Positions 2 to 6,422 of a stretch of DNA of 6,423 nt are shown in pieces. The notes below the pieces were generated by a model. That model was not told the origin of the DNA, searched no databases, and saw only the letters and a list, made by a program, of their open reading frames with translations. The DNA is taken from positions 1 to 6,423 of the forward strand of contig CAJCHQ010000264.1 of assembly GCA_903970295.1 (NCBI GenBank), written 5' to 3'. Made by a program: the position numbers and the translations under genes. This stretch comes from Bryobacterales bacterium. GTDB lineage: Bacteria > Cyanobacteriota > Vampirovibrionia > Obscuribacterales > Obscuribacteraceae. The number at the start of each line of letters is the position of its first letter. Position 1 is the stretch's first letter.

Positions 2-1192
2 AGTGGCAATGGTGGTCCTGGCACGGCGATTTTCTCGAACGCTCCTTCGGTCTCCGGCCCTGCCGGCAGCACTCTGATCGATGACTGGTACAAGTTCAAC
101 ACGGGGACCGGCCCGAATCCTGGCCTCGGTACCGGCACCTCGGATGGTGCCATCTGGATCGCCACCAGCCCTACAGCCGCCGGTACAGTCGCTACTGCCG
201 CCCAGATACCGGTCCTGGAAAAAATCGTCGCTCCTAATTATGTATCGATTTCAGTGAACAACTGCTTGAGCGAATTGAACCGTCAAGGTTATGTCAGCGG
301 TGCCTGCTTGACCTGGATGCCGACCATCGCTCTCACCTACGGCCGCTCGTTACCCAGTGGCTCCAGCGACCTCAGTTCGATGGGACCAGTCTTCTCAAAC
401 GTTGATGTGATCAAAGAGACTGTCATCCAAGAATTCCTCAGTCGCGTTCAACGCTTTACAGTCCAAGCGCCGGCAACGCCTGCCGCCAGTAATTTTCCGC
501 ATACTCCCCAACTGGCTGGCTCGACTGGAATGGGACAGTACATCACACCCGATGGGCAGACTGGTCCTGGCGCCAGGTACGCATCGCCTTTCGTATCGAT
601 GCCGATCGAGAAGCCAAACTCACCTTACGCCTACTTGAATCAAATCGACCAATTTGGTGGTGCTTGCGGCACAACAACCGTCTTCAACAAAATTGTGCAA
701 CGCTGCCAGGAAATTCAACCGACAGTCACAGCCGCGCAGGTGAAAGCGCTGCTCAGCTCGAACACGCTGCCGATGGGCGCCAAACTCTACATCTATCTGC
801 CCGGGGCCAATCCTAAGTTGAGCGGTCCCTATGGCGGTCTCACCATGGACGTCGGACCACCCCCGGCATTCAGCGGTCAGATCCCTGATGGTCAGCCAGT
901 CAATCCTCTCAGCCACTGTCAATGTACATACAATCTGCTCAATCTGATGGTTGATGTCGAGCGCGATCCGCCGGTGCATAGACTATCAGGCAGTACGCCT
1001 GCACCGACATGGCAAGCGGATTTGAACCTGCACGAGCGCCCGTACACGCAGACCTCTCCTCAAGGCATTGCCGATCTCTTCGGCGCCGACCACGCTCTCT
1101 GGCAAGATTCATCAGGCTACGGCAATTTGCTTGGACACCTCGAGTTTGCCAACACAGTCCAGGGAGGCGACCAATTCGCCGCTCCCAACTAA
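2..1192 (+). CDS. TadG-like large exported protein, copy 1 (5' end outside window)
   Basis: The frame is open from the left edge, so this is the last 396 residues of a longer protein. A GTG at 254 is internal, because codons 2-253 already match the complete paralogue at 2162-4423 (for example the shared LIDDWYKxNTG and DGAIWIATSPTAAGTVAT segments). The alignment places this part opposite paralogue residues from about 361 onward, so about 360 amino-terminal residues, including the expected TadG-like membrane segment, are missing from view. Six cysteines are shared with the paralogue (NNCL, GACLTW, GGxCGT, QRCQEI and HCxC). A seventh paralogue cysteine (C368) is asparagine here, and there is a short Gly/Pro insertion near the left edge. 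The TadE-like gene starts 78 bases downstream. The function of the visible region is unknown to me. A surface or pilus-associated role is inferred from the paralogue's amino end and from the neighbour. Confidence 0.85.
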   Translation, partial: SGNGGPGTAIFSNAPSVSGPAGSTLIDDWYKFNTGTGPNPGLGTGTSDGAIWIATSPTAAGTVATAAQIPVLEKIVAPNYVSISVNNCLSELNRQGYVSGACLTWMPTIALTYGRSLPSGSSDLSSMGPVFSNVDVIKETVIQEFLSRVQRFTVQAPATPAASNFPHTPQLAGSTGMGQYITPDGQTGPGARYASPFVSMPIEKPNSPYAYLNQIDQFGGACGTTTVFNKIVQRCQEIQPTVTAAQVKALLSSNTLPMGAKLYIYLPGANPKLSGPYGGLTMDVGPPPAFSGQIPDGQPVNPLSHCQCTYNLLNLMVDVERDPPVHRLSGSTPAPTWQADLNLHERPYTQTSPQGIADLFGADHALWQDSSGYGNLLGHLEFANTVQGGDQFAAPN

Positions 1193-1254
1193 GTCAGGGG
1201 GAGAAGCTCGCCCAACGGCGTGAACTGGACACCTACATCTAATTCAAATTTTTT

Positions 1255-1264
1255 GGAGGCGAGG
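1255..1264 (+). promoter_or_regulatory. ribosome binding site deciding the start of TadE-like copy 1
   Basis: GGAGG (1255-1259) is followed by a second GAGG (1261-1264) that lies six bases before the ATG at 1271. This supports ATG 1271 rather than the upstream in-frame GTG at 1220, which has no comparable site. Confidence 0.75.
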
Positions 1265-1270
1265 CAAGCG

Positions 1271-1900
1271 ATGAGACGTTCAACTAGAAAAACTGTTACC
1301 GGTGCCAGTCTGACTGAGGCTGCGGCTGGATTGATCTTCTTGATTCCGATTTTGTTCATTCTGATCGATTGCGCTACGTTGATCCTGGCCCAGACTCAAA
1401 ATGATGGCATCGCTAAGCACTCTGCTCGAGCCGCTGCCGGTATGAGCACTGCCACAGCCAGACAAACAACAGCCGGAATGGTTGTCGCCAGTTACCAGGG
1501 CAATGCAGTCGAAACAGCGCCGACCATGCAATCTTATTCCGACGATGGTCAAAACGTCACAGTCGTGACGCGAGTTGTGTGCCATTTGCCGATCCCGGTG
1601 CCATTTGGCGGACCCACCGAGCAATCATTCTCGGCTACCGAGACCGAGCCCATAGTCGCCCTTTTAGCCCCCAACTCCAACCCGGTTCAAATTGCTGATG
1701 CCGGTATTGCCTGGGGCCAGAATGACGATACCGGCTATTTGAAAGTATCACTGCCTTGTGGACCCTACGGTGGCGGCACGCCGGTAGTCACTGCACCCGT
1801 GATTGGCGCGCCACTCGGCGGCGGCGGCGGTGGCGGCGGCGGACTAGGTCGGGGCGGCGGGGGCGGTGGTGGTGGCAATCGCAATACTAGACCAGATTGA
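1271..1900 (+). CDS. TadE-like pseudopilin with poly-glycine tail, copy 1
   Basis: This is a 209-residue protein. After a basic leader (MRRSTRKTVT) comes a prepilin-type site, G11 followed by ASLTE, which places E16 at position +5 as in type IV pilins and TadE/TadF pseudopilins. A hydrophobic helix follows (about 17-40, with the TadE-like proline P26), then the NDGIAKHSARAAAG segment, which resembles the conserved region after the TadE helix. Cleavage by a prepilin peptidase and export by a Tad-type machine are inferred from this. The rest (about 60-180) is a Thr/Val/Pro-rich exported domain. The tail has 9 and 8 glycines in a row (183-191, 195-202) and ends in NRNTRPD. I chose ATG 1271 because it has a good ribosome site and because the paralogue at 4496 then aligns residue for residue through its first 16 positions. 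An in-frame GTG at 1220 would add 17 residues with no counterpart there. It is probably co-transcribed with the long gene upstream (78-base gap). Confidence 0.85.
   Translation: MRRSTRKTVTGASLTEAAAGLIFLIPILFILIDCATLILAQTQNDGIAKHSARAAAGMSTATARQTTAGMVVASYQGNAVETAPTMQSYSDDGQNVTVVTRVVCHLPIPVPFGGPTEQSFSATETEPIVALLAPNSNPVQIADAGIAWGQNDDTGYLKVSLPCGPYGGGTPVVTAPVIGAPLGGGGGGGGGLGRGGGGGGGGNRNTRPD
1817..1876 (+). repeat. GGN triplet tract encoding the poly-Gly tail, copy 1
   Basis: Nearly every codon is a glycine codon (9 glycines, then Leu-Gly-Arg, then 8 glycines). GGC predominates, mixed with GGT, one GGA and one GGG. The mixed codons argue against very recent triplet slippage, although slippage probably seeded the tract. 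The + strand is very G-rich here. Confidence 0.9.
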
Positions 1901-1942
1901 CATCAACCATAGCATTTGCATTTAATGATGAATATTTTCTGC

Positions 1943-1974
1943 GCGTTATCAGTTTTTTTTAGAACTGATAACGC
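1943..1974 (+). terminator. perfect 12-bp stem-loop, possible terminator or operator
   Basis: GCGTTATCAGTT (1943-1954) and its exact reverse complement AACTGATAACGC (1963-1974) flank an 8-base loop, TTTTTTAG. It begins 43 bases after the stop of TadE-like copy 1, a suitable place for ending module 1 transcription. Only 5 of 12 pairs are G-C and the + strand downstream (TCTTACTCT) is only a weak T tract, so it is not a textbook intrinsic terminator. A protein-binding inverted repeat controlling module 2 is the main alternative. Confidence 0.5.
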
Positions 1975-2147
1975 TCTTACTCTGCAATAACTGACCTCAG
2001 CCGTGCTATTATTAAAGAAACGATTAAAATTATCAAATGTGTCCGAATCCGTTTTTACTAATGGTGGATGATTAGCCAAATAAATAAGTTCCGTGCAGCG
2101 ACAGTTGATTCGTGGTGTCACGTCTTCTGATTTGTGATTTGGAAAAT

Positions 2148-2152
2148 AGGAG
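2148..2152 (+). promoter_or_regulatory. ribosome binding site of TadG-like copy 2
   Basis: AGGAG lies nine bases before the ATG at 2162. A second in-frame ATG at 2174 would be 21 bases away, so 2162 is preferred. Confidence 0.7.
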
Positions 2153-2161
2153 CGACCGGTT

Positions 2162-4423
2162 ATGCAGACTAAAATGCGGCGAAGCAGAGGCGCAGTTCTT
2201 GGCTTGGTAGCCGCCTGCACTCTTATTTTTGTTGTTCTTGGCATAGCGTTTTTCTTTCTCGCTAAGATTTTTGGTGGTGGCAGAGAAGTTGCCCACACCA
2301 CAGATTCAGGCATCCTCAACGTCTGCAAACAGGCGATGCAGAATCCGGGCGTTTCTGCAGCCGGGACCGATTTTGCTTTTGACGGTGTGCCGGTCGGCGC
2401 TCCGATCACGCTCTATTCCTATAACAAATGTGTATCTCAGGCCTTGCTCGTGGCGCTCAATGCCCAAGCCGCTGGCACCACTGCCGGAGGCAACAATGCA
2501 GCGGCAGTGCTCGAGCAGTTGCAGACTAAGGTCACCCAGCCCCTGCGCAATGAACTGACTGGCGGTAGCGGCGGCACTTTCAATTATCAAAATGCTTTCG
2601 CGACCGTAGCCGGTATGAATAACACGCGTATGAGCGGCAACAATACCGTTCAGGCCCCGAATTACGGAACTGCCTATATGCGAGGTGGGACAGGCGATCT
2701 ATCCACTGTCGCTTCGAGCAATCTCTATTTCACTAACGGTCAGCTGAGCGCTGCGGCTATGAGTGAAATTCCCTTCAATACAACTGCAACTTTCCGACCG
2801 ACAGCGCCAAATTCTACATCTTATGTAGCCGGTTACAAGCCGATTTCGGTGACTGTGCCCGCAGCCGGTCGGCTTACTTTTATGACCGTCCCGGTTTTTC
2901 CCCAACAGTCGCCTCACCTCGTCAGTCTCGGTGACTTCACTGCTTCAGCCGGTGCACCCGACGCCAATACACTGCCTAACGCGATGAAAGTGAATTCGCA
3001 AACGCTCGATTCGACTGCCCAGGTTTTTGGCGGTGCCGTCGCTTGTGCCATTGTCGGGGCTGTCGATCAAGGTTATGGGGCGCAAATTCCAGGCGGTTAT
3101 ATCGAAATTTTCAATCGTCCTGGTCAAAAATTGAGCGGTTTTGCTCCCAATGATATGAGCAACAACATATTCAACAATGAAATGTTCGGTGAGCCGGGCG
3201 TTTCGCTCACCGTTATCCCGCCTCCTGCCGGTGCTTCACCGAGTGGCACGGCGATCTTTTCTTGTGCGCCGTCGGCGGGCGGTCCTGCCGGCACTACTTT
3301 GATCGATGACTGGTACAAGTACAACACGGGGGCTGGACCGAATCCCGGCACTGGCACCGGCACCTCTGATGGTGCAATCTGGATCGCCACCAGTCCCACT
3401 GCCGCCGGCACCGTCGCTACTTCCGGGCAAATTGCGACTTTGCAAAACATCGTGGCGCCCAATTACGTATCTGTATCTGTGAACAATTGTTTGAAAGAAT
3501 TGAATACCCAGGGTTATGTCAAAGGCGCTTGCTTGACGTGGATGCCGACGATTGCCCTGACTTACGGGCGCTCTTTGCCAGGTGGCAGCGACAATCTCAG
3601 TTCGATGGGACCGGTTTTCTCCAATGTCGATGCGATCAAACAAACGGTTATTCAAGAATTTCTCAGTCGGGTTCAACGCTTCACTGTCCAGGCACCATCA
3701 ACGCCACCAGCCAGTGCCTATCCGTTGACTCCGCAAATGGCCGGCTCGACCGGAATGGGACAATACATCACGCCCAATGGTGGCACCGGCCCTAACCAGA
3801 GGTATCCTTCGCCCTACGTCTCGATGCCGATCGAAAAGCCCGCATCTCCCTATGCGTATTTGTCTCAAATCGATCAATTCGGAGGCGGTTGCGGTACAAG
3901 CACGGTGTTCAGCAAGCTCCTGCAGCGCTGTCAAGAAATTCAGCCTTCGGTGACTGCGGCTCAGGTCAAAGCCCTGCTCGGCTCGAATACTTTGCCGATG
4001 GGGGCCAAGCTCTATATCTACTTGCCCGGCGCTAACCCTAATTCGTCCACGCCTTATGGCGGATTGACAATGGACGTGGGACCACCGCCGGCTTTCAGCG
4101 GAGTTCTCCCTGACGGGCAGCCGGTCAACCCCAAGAGCCACTGCGAATGCTCGTACAACTTGATCAATCTGATGGTCGATGTCGAGCGTGATCCTCCTGT
4201 AAAAGGAAGCGATTTGAACAGCAGCTCGCCGCCGGCGGTCTGGCAAGCTGATTTGAATTTGCACTGGCAGCCTTACACGCAGACCAAGACTATGGCAAAC
4301 ACCGACCTGTACGGTTACGACCATGCCATGTGGCAGGACTCATCCGGTGCTGGCAATCTTCTCGGTCATCTGGAGTTTGCCAACACTGTGCAAGGCGGCG
4401 ATCAATTTGCTGCTCCCAATTAG
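2162..4423 (+). CDS. TadG-like large exported protein, copy 2 (complete)
   Basis: This is a 753-residue protein. The amino end has basic residues, then RRSRGAVLGLV leading into a single hydrophobic helix (about 11-34). The REVAHTTDSGILNVCKQAM segment (41-59) follows and resembles the rEL..A.DaaAL region after the helix in TadE/TadG-like Flp pilus proteins. As in TadG relatives, the +5 glutamate of true pilins is absent (it is Leu15 if cleavage follows G10). The rest is expected outside the cytoplasmic membrane and is rich in Gly, Ala, Thr, Ser, Asn and Pro. The region from about 361 matches copy 1 and has six conserved cysteines (443, 457, 577, 590, 661, 663), which suggests disulfides. I see no von Willebrand A motif, and the carboxy-terminal part matches no family I know. 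Start ATG 2162 is supported by AGGAG nine bases upstream. The TadE-like gene follows after 72 bases. A role as a pilus-associated or surface protein is inferred from the amino end and the partner gene, and is not shown directly. Confidence 0.85.
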   Translation: MQTKMRRSRGAVLGLVAACTLIFVVLGIAFFFLAKIFGGGREVAHTTDSGILNVCKQAMQNPGVSAAGTDFAFDGVPVGAPITLYSYNKCVSQALLVALNAQAAGTTAGGNNAAAVLEQLQTKVTQPLRNELTGGSGGTFNYQNAFATVAGMNNTRMSGNNTVQAPNYGTAYMRGGTGDLSTVASSNLYFTNGQLSAAAMSEIPFNTTATFRPTAPNSTSYVAGYKPISVTVPAAGRLTFMTVPVFPQQSPHLVSLGDFTASAGAPDANTLPNAMKVNSQTLDSTAQVFGGAVACAIVGAVDQGYGAQIPGGYIEIFNRPGQKLSGFAPNDMSNNIFNNEMFGEPGVSLTVIPPPAGASPSGTAIFSCAPSAGGPAGTTLIDDWYKYNTGAGPNPGTGTGTSDGAIWIATSPTAAGTVATSGQIATLQNIVAPNYVSVSVNNCLKELNTQGYVKGACLTWMPTIALTYGRSLPGGSDNLSSMGPVFSNVDAIKQTVIQEFLSRVQRFTVQAPSTPPASAYPLTPQMAGSTGMGQYITPNGGTGPNQRYPSPYVSMPIEKPASPYAYLSQIDQFGGGCGTSTVFSKLLQRCQEIQPSVTAAQVKALLGSNTLPMGAKLYIYLPGANPNSSTPYGGLTMDVGPPPAFSGVLPDGQPVNPKSHCECSYNLINLMVDVERDPPVKGSDLNSSSPPAVWQADLNLHWQPYTQTKTMANTDLYGYDHAMWQDSSGAGNLLGHLEFANTVQGGDQFAAPN

Positions 4424-4481
4424 ACGACTTTCCAGGGAGCTAACTGAAAACCACAACAGAGAGCATGGCTATCGATTTACT

Positions 4482-4486
4482 GGAGG
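4482..4486 (+). promoter_or_regulatory. ribosome binding site deciding a GTG start
   Basis: GGAGG is nine bases before the GTG at 4496, which supports this non-ATG start. The resulting leader has the same length up to the GASLTE site as in copy 1. Confidence 0.75.
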
Positions 4487-4495
4487 ATAGTAAAA

Positions 4496-5131
4496 GTGAA
4501 TACAGTTCTTAGAAGAACCACCACTGGTGCCAGTCTCACCGAGGCTGTTGCGGGGCTGATCTTCCTCATACCACTGCTTTTCATTTTATTAGACGTGGCT
4601 ACACTGGTTGTGGCCCAGACGCAAAATGACGGCATCGCCAAGCATGCGGCTCGGGCTGCCGCGGGCATGAGCAGTCGAGCCGCGAGACAAACAACCGCCG
4701 GAATGGTCGTCGCCAGTTACAAAGGTAATGCCATTTCGACAGCGCCGACTTTGAACTCTTATTCGGAAGTGCCTGCCGGTCAAAACGTTACGGTCGTCAC
4801 TAAATTGACATGCCATCTGCCGGTGCCTGTGCCGTTTGGTGGTCCGGCCGAGCAAACTTTCTGCGCCACTGAGACCGAGCCCATCGTCGCCATTTTGGCA
4901 CCAGCAGAACCAGTCGGTGTCGTTGCTAATGGTGCAACAGGCTGGACTCAAAATGACGACTCTGGCTTTCTCAAAGTATCTCTACCCTGCGGTCCCGATG
5001 GTGGCGGCACGCCCCACGTGACAGCGCCTGTAATCGGCGAACCGCTCTCCGGTGGCGGCGGTGGCGGTATTCTTCGTGGTGGTGGTGGCGGCGGTGGCGG
5101 CGGCGGCGGTCGCGGCGTCAAGCCCTTATAG
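4496..5131 (+). CDS. TadE-like pseudopilin with poly-glycine tail, copy 2
   Basis: This 211-residue protein starts at GTG and is the paralogue of the gene at 1271-1900. Leader MNTVLRRTTT precedes G11 and ASLTE, giving the prepilin-type site with E16 at +5. The hydrophobic helix (about 17-40) carries P26, and NDGIAKHAARAAAG follows as in TadE proteins. Conserved blocks shared with copy 1 include QTTAGMVVASY, QNVTVVT, PVPFGGP, ATETEPIVA and KVSLPCGP. Two cysteines, C106 and C165, are at positions conserved in copy 1 (104 and 163). C123 is found only here, and C34 of copy 1 is Val34 here. The tail has 6 and 11 glycines in a row (186-191, 195-205), separated by Ile-Leu-Arg, and ends RGVKPL. It is probably translated from one transcript with the long gene 72 bases upstream. 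It ends 32 bases from the convergent cdsA stop. Confidence 0.85.
   Translation: MNTVLRRTTTGASLTEAVAGLIFLIPLLFILLDVATLVVAQTQNDGIAKHAARAAAGMSSRAARQTTAGMVVASYKGNAISTAPTLNSYSEVPAGQNVTVVTKLTCHLPVPVPFGGPAEQTFCATETEPIVAILAPAEPVGVVANGATGWTQNDDSGFLKVSLPCGPDGGGTPHVTAPVIGEPLSGGGGGGILRGGGGGGGGGGGRGVKPL
5051..5110 (+). repeat. GGN triplet tract encoding the poly-Gly tail, copy 2
   Basis: This tract has the same length (60 bases) and the same place in the gene as the one in copy 1: 6 glycines, Ile-Leu-Arg, then 11 glycines, with mixed GGC and GGT codons. The non-glycine break is again three residues ending in Arg, although the run lengths differ between copies. Confidence 0.9.
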
Positions 5132-5163: not shown

Positions 5164-6123
5164 TTAGTGAGCAAAGAAGTAACGCGTTAGATGAAAAAAT
5201 ATTGGGGCCGCAAAGCATAGCGAATCAATGCGATCGAGTATGCCGCCATGACCGGGAATGAGCGTGCCGAAGTCTTTGATCCCCCGATCTCGTTTGATTG
5301 CGGAAAGAACTAAGCCGCCGAAAAATCCTGCCAACGTGATTGCCAATGACATCAAGGCAGCCTGCCAGGGCAGAAACGGTGTCAGCGAGAACAGTGCGGT
5401 GCCCAGAGCTGAGGCTGAGAGCACTCCACCAACCAGTCCTTCCACGGTTTTGTTAGGACTGACCGTTGGGTTGATTTTGTGTCGGCCGAATAGTTTGCCG
5501 AAAATATACTGCAGAACGTCGCTTGCCTGAGTGACTATGACCAGGAAGCAGAGCAATTTGTAATCTTGACCGGCAAATCCCGCGATGTTCAAATTGAGCA
5601 AGGCTGCCGCATGACTGGGAAAATAAACACACAAAAGCAGTGCCCATTGCAATTCACTCGACCGGTCGAGAAAATTTGTGGTATCACCAGCGATGGCGTT
5701 GCCAATAGGCACGAAAAGCATCATATAGACTGGGATGAAAATGGAAAATAGTCCGTACCAATCGCCAGCGACCAGGCAATACTGTGCCGGCAGGACGAGA
5801 AAAAATATACTGAGCATCGTTTTGTGATCGGCTTTGCGCACCGGCGTCAAAACCAGCATCTCGCGCAAGGCCAGAAATGAAATGAGCAGAAAGAGAAAAA
5901 TAACCGCGATTTTCCCCAGGCATATTGAAGCGGCAAAGGTACCGGCTAAGATCCACCACGACTGTATTCTCGCCACCAGATTGTCGGCCGATTCTTTGGT
6001 CAAAGGCGCCTGGGCTCTGGTCTGAATCTTAGCCGCGACACCTGATGCGGCTGCCAGGATAGCCGCCACTGCGCCGAATAAAGTGATGAAACTAGAGTCA
6101 AAATTCAGCGCTAGCTGGCACAT
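5164..6123 (-). CDS. cdsA: phosphatidate cytidylyltransferase (CdsA family)
   Basis: This 319-residue membrane enzyme is expected to make CDP-diacylglycerol from phosphatidate and CTP, the branch-point donor for phospholipid head groups. Most of its length is hydrophobic, with segments at about 11-31, 58-86, 103-145, 158-182, 188-200, 230-250, 253-276 and 300-317. The CdsA signature is intact near the end: SAIKRDRGIKDFG (274-286) followed by PGHGG (290-294) and DRID (297-300). The upstream block QASDVLQYIFGKLFGRHKI (199-217) and SPNKT (222-226) is also present. The SDVxQY form, in place of the nDxxAY of many housekeeping CdsA proteins, recalls the YnbB-type branch, from memory of the family. 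ATG 6123 overlaps the end of the plsC-like gene by 13 bases and has GAGG (6134-6137) ten bases upstream, so the two are probably one operon and translationally coupled. It converges on the TadE-like gene, and I see no clear hairpin in the 32-base gap. Confidence 0.9.
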   Translation of the reverse strand: MCQLALNFDSSFITLFGAVAAILAAASGVAAKIQTRAQAPLTKESADNLVARIQSWWILAGTFAASICLGKIAVIFLFLLISFLALREMLVLTPVRKADHKTMLSIFFLVLPAQYCLVAGDWYGLFSIFIPVYMMLFVPIGNAIAGDTTNFLDRSSELQWALLLCVYFPSHAAALLNLNIAGFAGQDYKLLCFLVIVTQASDVLQYIFGKLFGRHKINPTVSPNKTVEGLVGGVLSASALGTALFSLTPFLPWQAALMSLAITLAGFFGGLVLSAIKRDRGIKDFGTLIPGHGGILDRIDSLCFAAPIFFHLTRYFFAH

Positions 6124-6422
6124 TTTAATACCGCCTCTTGGGCACGAATGAGAAACTCACGGCGATTCTCATCGGCTTGTACTTTTATGGGTTGGCCAAA
6201 AGTAACGGTGCACGGTAGTGGCACCGGCATCAATTCGCCTTTCGGCAGAATTTTGTGCATGTTACTCAAGTGCACTGGTACCAACTCGATCTGGGGATTA
6301 GCTTTGCTCAAATGATAGAGTCCGCTTTTAAAAGGTTTGAGTTCGCCCTCTTCAGCGCGCCCGCCTTCCGGGAAGATGACCAGCGAGCGGCCTGAAACTA
6401 GCAATTCATTCAAGGCATCGAT
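6111..6422 (-). CDS. plsC: PlsC-like lysophospholipid acyltransferase, carboxy-terminal part
   Basis: The gene runs off the right edge, so only the last 103 residues are visible. The frame continues to 6422 (IDALNELL), so the TTG at 6413 is not taken as the start. FPEGGR followed by GELKPFKSGLYHLSK corresponds to block III of the glycerolipid acyltransferase family (usually FPEGTRS), which helps bind the glycerophosphate substrate. LVPVHLSN corresponds to block IV. The catalytic NHxxxxD (block I) lies outside the window, so activity cannot be confirmed here. The expected reaction is acylation of 1-acyl-glycerol-3-phosphate to phosphatidate, the substrate of the CdsA enzyme encoded next. The stop codon overlaps the cdsA start by 13 bases. 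It could also be a related acyltransferase with a different acceptor. Confidence 0.8.
   Translation of the reverse strand: MDALNELLVSGRSLVIFPEGGRAEEGELKPFKSGLYHLSKANPQIELVPVHLSNMHKILPKGELMPVPLPCTVTFGQPIKVQADENRREFLIRAQEAVLKCAS
6134..6137 (-). promoter_or_regulatory. ribosome binding site of cdsA, inside the plsC-like gene
   Basis: On the - strand GAGG sits ten bases before ATG 6123, within the last codons of the upstream acyltransferase gene. This fits coupled translation. Confidence 0.55.

Follow-up and report, generated by a model that had tools for sequence, protein, structure and literature searches.

The Kil pilus of Myxococcus xanthus, a tight adherence (Tad) pilus, possesses four paralogous, partly redundant KilLMN tip clusters; any single cluster suffices for pilus formation, and the loss of all four abolishes it (PMC12075869). 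The same report, which appeared in 2025 and concerns exchangeable Tad tips of a predatory bacterium, describes strains with single tips as differing by prey and the tip genes as restricted to Myxococcota by sequence (PMC12075869). In Caulobacter, the large minor-pilin-like protein CpaL with its von Willebrand A domain is predicted at the tip (PMC12607857), and tip complexes of type 4 filaments are described as capped by a subunit lacking Glu5 (PMC10191384). Here we analyze a stretch of 6,423 nucleotides, referred to below as the window (contig CAJCHQ010000264.1 of assembly GCA_903970295.1, a Bryobacterales bacterium assigned by GTDB to the Obscuribacteraceae), which carries two consecutive pairs of a long and a short gene. 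We confirmed that the two pairs are a real tandem duplication with the same gene order. On balance, we consider it probable that the pairs are tip modules for a type IVc (Tad) pilus.

The several paralogous minor-pilin clusters per Tad machine known from Kil are paralleled by dispersed modules in relatives of the window, since in eight genomes mapped in detail several paralogous clusters per genome lie apart from the machine. KilL, KilM, and KilN also combine a large pilin, whose distal domain has no match in PDB, with partners homologous to TadE and TadF, and the window modules appear similar in build. The systems differ in that a Kil module consists of three genes (L, M, and N together) and a window module of two. 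Moreover, the Kil tips were tested genetically, whereas the window modules are candidates read from sequence. The main text of PMC12075869 contained no match for cyanobacter, Melainabacter, or Vampirovibrio, passages of PMC4451040, which mentions Obscuribacter together with pili, contained none for Tad, and full-text literature covering few subscription journals yielded nothing on Obscuribacterales Tad, Melainabacteria tight adherence, or Vampirovibrionia pilus. If the same logic holds, it would do so with different proteins in a phylum distant from Myxococcota. With a single conserved machine and several candidate tips in each genome, pilus tip choice would become comparable across the order, and a first view of how members of the Obscuribacterales contact surfaces or other cells would be gained. 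We regard the modules as a sequence-based lead on tip choice in a little-studied order.

Comparison with TadE and TadG

Motif and profile place the short protein as a TadE-like minor pilin. In the short protein, a leader with a terminal glycine is followed by ASLTE and then by a hydrophobic helix. Of the 61 aligned short relatives, 58 have both G(-1) and E(+5), and the site is present in both window copies. In an hhalign comparison, the short profile matched 19 canonical TadE proteins from Tad-1 loci of the order with 90.8% over 60 columns, the control values being 2.01% for TadG, 0.30% for RcpC, and less than 1% for five column-shuffled TadE alignments. The original prediction had called the short genes TadE-like, and these results agree with it. 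Single-family searches gave weaker signals: Pfam TadE (PF07811) matched 19 of the 61 short relatives weakly (best E value 0.0013) and NCBIfam TadE_Rv3655c (NF041390) matched 29 (best E value 9.7e-5), none of them strongly. The window short proteins matched no Pfam family at an E value of 1, and because PF07811 does not recognize them, we use the label TadE-like rather than TadE. The structural model (pLDDT 76.6) consists of a helix at residues 12 to 56, a second helix, three strands, and a tail of low confidence. The prepilin motif, one long helix, and a small beta sheet are thus common to canonical TadE and the window proteins, whereas the latter bear a glycine-rich tail and the genes of their relatives sit outside tad loci. 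Such a tail is present in 9 of the 61 short relatives. Tails vary among paralogues within one genome, as two short proteins of MAG_CO261 have long low-complexity tails of the GSGSS type (L001, 12314-13249) and the GGGGD type (L002, 8800-9543).

The long protein is TadG-like in architecture only. Its model (pLDDT 84.6, pTM 0.79) shows helices at residues 11 to 38 and 40 to 60, followed by a large mixed body. The leader glycine was conserved in all 54 long sequences with a letter at this position and E(+5) in none of 57; in canonical TadG of the order, the corresponding numbers were 16 of 18 and 0 of 18. A large subunit with an N-terminal pilin-like helix is a feature in common with TadG and CpaL, and a leader glycine without Glu5 one in common with canonical TadG of the order; the lack of Glu5 is also the rule by which cap subunits are described in PMC10191384. 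The leader is shared with the short family (hhalign, 62% over 17 columns). Mean pairwise identity within the long family was 64% for residues 1 to 60, 38% for residues 61 to 200, 42% for residues 201 to 345, 27% for residues 346 to 560, and 37% for residues 561 to 753, indicating a conserved base. Support for the original prediction of TadG-like long genes is weaker and comes from the N terminus, the overall architecture, and the shared lack of Glu5. In family and profile comparisons, PF13400 (TadE/G-like) touched 8 of 57 long relatives (best E value 9.7e-4) and did not match the window protein, and the long profile aligned with canonical TadG with 23% over 21 columns, the body being dissimilar. 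Unlike in CpaL, no von Willebrand A family appeared among the 18 Pfam families with hits in the 57 long relatives. No relative of the long body was found by sequence or fold, and a weak or absent fold match does not prove a new fold.

Gene pairs and Tad loci in Candidatus Obscuribacterales

Among 53 genomes of Candidatus Obscuribacterales, a search with the long protein matched 52 at an E value of 1e-5, and one with the short protein matched all 53 at an E value of 0.01. Long matches per genome ranged from 0 to 14 with a median of 4 and increased with genome size (Spearman 0.60, split hits counted). Among 386 sampled genomes of the phylum, with at most two candidates scored per genome, the probe genome (G001) was the only one to match the long profile. 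The relatives fetched from a named genome collection all lay in one metagenome-assembled genome of Candidatus Obscuribacterales, and the names of photosynthetic cyanobacteria on some database relatives probably reflect misnamed bins. Eight of the 53 genomes, selected by eye because they had long contigs and matched strongly, were mapped in detail (G001, G017, G021, G033, G037, G038, G040, and G050), and each contained 3 to 10 long open reading frames (ORFs) and 7 to 13 short-gene matches, in line with the earlier expectation of several modules per genome. On one contig of G038 (L063, G038:C41), divergent long-family genes at 6075-8336 (-) and 11252-13501 (+) lie about 3 kb apart, with no short-gene match on the contig.

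The 47 long ORFs of the mapped genomes fall into 20 of up to 620 amino acids (open frame) and 27 longer ones, the size class of the window. In the former class, which covers the same N-terminal part of the profile (positions about 1 to 320), 18 of the 20 are immediately preceded by a short gene on the same strand, in one case with an overlap of 17 bp. Pairing of long and short genes is therefore strong for the family as a whole. In the longer class, a short gene lies within 600 bp in two of the 27 cases, both from G001 and one with divergent orientation, and 0.6 to 5 kb away on the opposite strand in four. The long-then-short order that had been noted in the window thus proved to be local. In two arrays, two TadE-like short genes lie in a row, the second matching weakly: at L053 (10351-11254, -) a long gene is directly beside them, and at L065 (11670-12561, -) a long gene lies about 2.5 kb off on the other strand. 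These arrays are possibly three-gene modules like KilLMN.

The mapped genomes were also scanned for ATPases, platform proteins, and secretins. A PilB-type locus was present in all eight, a Tad-2 locus, with single-domain platform proteins, in seven, and a Tad-1 locus in five. Counted by eye across the order, TadA of the Tad-2 type occurred in 47 of 53 genomes with 79 to 100% identity and TadA of the Tad-1 type in 30 of 53. The Tad-2 locus L066 comprises genes for a Flp-like pilin (E value 0.0014, under the Pfam cut-off), RcpC, a ParA-type ATPase at the position of TadZ, TadA, TadB, TadC, and a prepilin peptidase. Four of the 47 Tad-2 loci were inspected over 20 kb each, and none had recognizable minor pilins: no ORF matched the long or short profile, or canonical TadE or TadG profiles, at an E value of 1, whereas the RcpC control was found in all four. 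The ORFs with a prepilin motif in these loci were Flp-like, with one exception considered below. Flp-like pilin genes numbered two per locus in L069 and L070 compared to one flagged in L066 and L068. The second Flp-like gene of L069 and L070 could be an adapter pilin like KilK/KilO. The Tad-1 locus L067, in contrast to these Tad-2 loci, has in one run genes for Flp, its own TadE (PF07811, E value 3.8e-16), RcpC, a TadG-like protein (PF13400, E value 0.0011, under the cut-off), TadZ (by position only), and TadA; at an E value of 1, neither the TadE nor the TadG of this locus matches the long and short profiles.

In the probe genome, one Tad ATPase was found, and four long and twelve short matches are spread over the genome. 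As there is one such ATPase, the Tad minor pilins of this genome must come from elsewhere, if its pilus works. The description of the modules as orphans was accurate insofar as no pilus machinery lies beside them in the mapped genomes, but it has to be qualified in that relatives carry Tad loci elsewhere. Secretins gave one to three matches per mapped genome (n = 8), none of which lies within 20 kb of a Tad ATPase by coordinates.

A candidate tip module and its alternatives

If each pair does encode a tip module, prepilin peptidase would cut the short protein after the glycine of G/ASLTE, and the cleaved protein would join a helical bundle that initiates the filament. The long protein would be a large, minor-pilin-like subunit with its conserved N-terminal helix in that bundle, where the missing Glu5 would fit a cap at the point at which assembly starts; its distal part could then be displayed at the tip for contact with a surface or with other cells. 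A single conserved Tad machine encoded elsewhere (Flp, RcpC, TadZ, TadA, TadB, TadC, and peptidase) would be primed by alternative, dispersed modules, and the tandem copies of the window would be two such modules kept adjacent. A broader and more tentative proposal, to which we give somewhat less than an even chance, is that tip and machine are uncoupled throughout this order of mostly uncultured Cyanobacteriota relatives: a near-invariant Tad core lacking its own minor pilins would be primed by expanding, genome-wide tip modules with a conserved base and a variable body, providing a species-specific repertoire of contact tips, of which the window would be one module after an old tandem duplication.

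Several observations weigh against a role as Tad tip modules. The main one concerns a fixed two-protein unit: no short gene lies within 5 kb of 21 of the 27 long ORFs in the size class of the window, so that pairing in this class is mostly absent outside the nearest relative. Measured from 12 TadA genes, the smallest distance to a module was 36.8 kb, and the contigs of 6 of these genes carried no module; with modules at least 36 kb off or on other contigs, the link to Tad is by family only, not by position. One genome (G023) has Tad-2 and no long match to the single query. The exception among the Tad-2 loci, L069:6556-7401, is a non-Flp ORF of 281 amino acids with a prepilin motif and without a match to a pilin profile; it looks like a hydrolase. 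As to the long protein, its kinship to TadG is weak, and residues 561 to 753 are conserved like residues 61 to 200, so that variability peaks in the middle of the protein and not simply at its far end. A search of PDB folds with the long and the short model gave no match below an E value of 1e-3. Finally, TadG itself is tabulated in PMC10191384 in the membrane sub-complex, not among the minor pilins.

The alternative that fares best, although we think it unlikely, is that a single N-terminal membrane helix anchors the long proteins, which would then be surface proteins and not pilus parts, with the TadE-like pilin as a separate, occasional neighbor. It would account for the predominance of unpaired genes in the longer class, for the lack of Glu5, and for a distal part without Pfam or PDB match. 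It accords poorly with a leader glycine that is invariant in the long family and prevalent in canonical TadG, with the contacts of PF13400 to the long family, and with the shorter class, which shares the N-terminal stretch and is regularly paired with a short gene.

Even less probable, in our judgment, is that the pairs are minor pilins of a type IVa pilus or a secretion pseudopilus and not of a Tad pilus. A long/short pair does lie 5 to 7 kb from PilB of a type IVa locus in G021, and another 18 to 19 kb from it in G040, which again counts against the Tad tip proposal. However, the N_methyl family PF07963 was found in 1 of the 61 short relatives compared to 19 for TadE, the short profile matches canonical TadE, and in the fold search pilin entries ranked below or among unrelated enzymes.

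Age of the duplication and layout of the window

The paralogy of the two pairs, claimed in the original prediction, was borne out by the alignments. The first long protein aligns with residues 356 to 753 of the second with 319 of 398 columns identical (80%), and the short proteins share 149 of 205 columns (73%). At the DNA level, the repeat consists of five blocks of 121 to 300 bases each with 72 to 78% identity, which occur in the same order and far beyond chance. Among 396 aligned codons of the long genes, 159 were identical, 160 differed silently, and 77 led to residue changes, corresponding to nonsynonymous (dN) and synonymous (dS) divergences of 0.15 and 1.65; for 203 codons of the short genes the numbers were 77, 72, and 54, with a dN of 0.21 and a dS of 1.47. 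With dS near saturation and a low dN (dN/dS about 0.1), the two pairs are of old origin and have been kept by purifying selection. The stop-to-stop distance is 3231 bp for both the long and the short copies, as had been noted before. This equality is partly a coincidence, because small indels within both genes cancel against a difference of 6 bases between the long-to-short spacers (78 bases in pair 1, 72 bases in pair 2); the copies are offset by 3225 bases in the segments 19-318 and 1285-1542 and by 3231 bases in 990-1191 and from 1547 onward.

In a tree of the C-terminal part of the long proteins, copy 1, copy 2, and the relative P0002 formed one group (99/99), which nests in a five-member clade with P0003 and P0004 (100/100). 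Copy 1 is 87% identical to P0002, which is not encoded by the window, compared to 81% to copy 2, and for this reason the duplication is probably older than this strain. For both P0002 and P0003, the longest contig listed measures 9851 bases, which hints at a second array without proving it. That the repeat arose in assembly or by very recent duplication, as the equal stop-to-stop distances might suggest, is practically untenable given a dS of about 1.5 to 1.65, dissimilar spacers, indels, and the closer relationship of copy 1 to P0002, and the argument from silent differences made earlier is thus upheld.

The coordinates of the features are compiled in Table 1. In the case of the first short gene, the mechanically called ORF begins earlier, at GTG 1220. 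A 261-base gap separates the two pairs and holds a perfect 12-bp inverted repeat, and the pairs may therefore be separate transcription units. The region 1925-1990 has a predicted fold of -19.7 kcal/mol (z -4.2); a consensus terminator scan did not list the repeat at 1943-1974, and promoter-like sites were no more frequent than in shuffled sequence.

Table 1. Features of the 6,423-nucleotide window
Feature	Coordinates	Strand	Remarks
Long gene, copy 1	2..1192	+	C-terminal 396 aa; open at left edge, N terminus beyond the window
Short TadE-like gene, copy 1	1271..1900	+	209 aa from ATG 1271; GGAGG ribosome site before ATG
Prepilin-peptidase motif G/ASLTE, short copy 1	1301..1318	+	Read from sequence
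Glycine-rich tail, short copy 1	1817..1876	+	
Perfect 12-bp inverted repeat between pairs	1943..1974	.	Candidate two-way terminator
Long gene, copy 2	2162..4423	+	753 aa; pilin-like N-terminal helix, large distal part
Leader glycine (residue 10), long copy 2	2189..2191	+	Conserved; +5 is leucine, not glutamate
Short TadE-like gene, copy 2	4496..5131	+	211 aa, GTG start
Prepilin-peptidase motif G/ASLTE, short copy 2	4526..4543	+	Read from sequence
Glycine-rich tail, short copy 2	5051..5110	+	
CdsA-type phosphatidate cytidylyltransferase	5164..6123	-	Overlaps end of acyltransferase gene
PlsC-type acyltransferase, end of gene	6111..6422	-	

Within the order, the cdsA gene of the window showed its highest identity, 61%, to G001 (residues 45 to 319), on a contig that carries no module.

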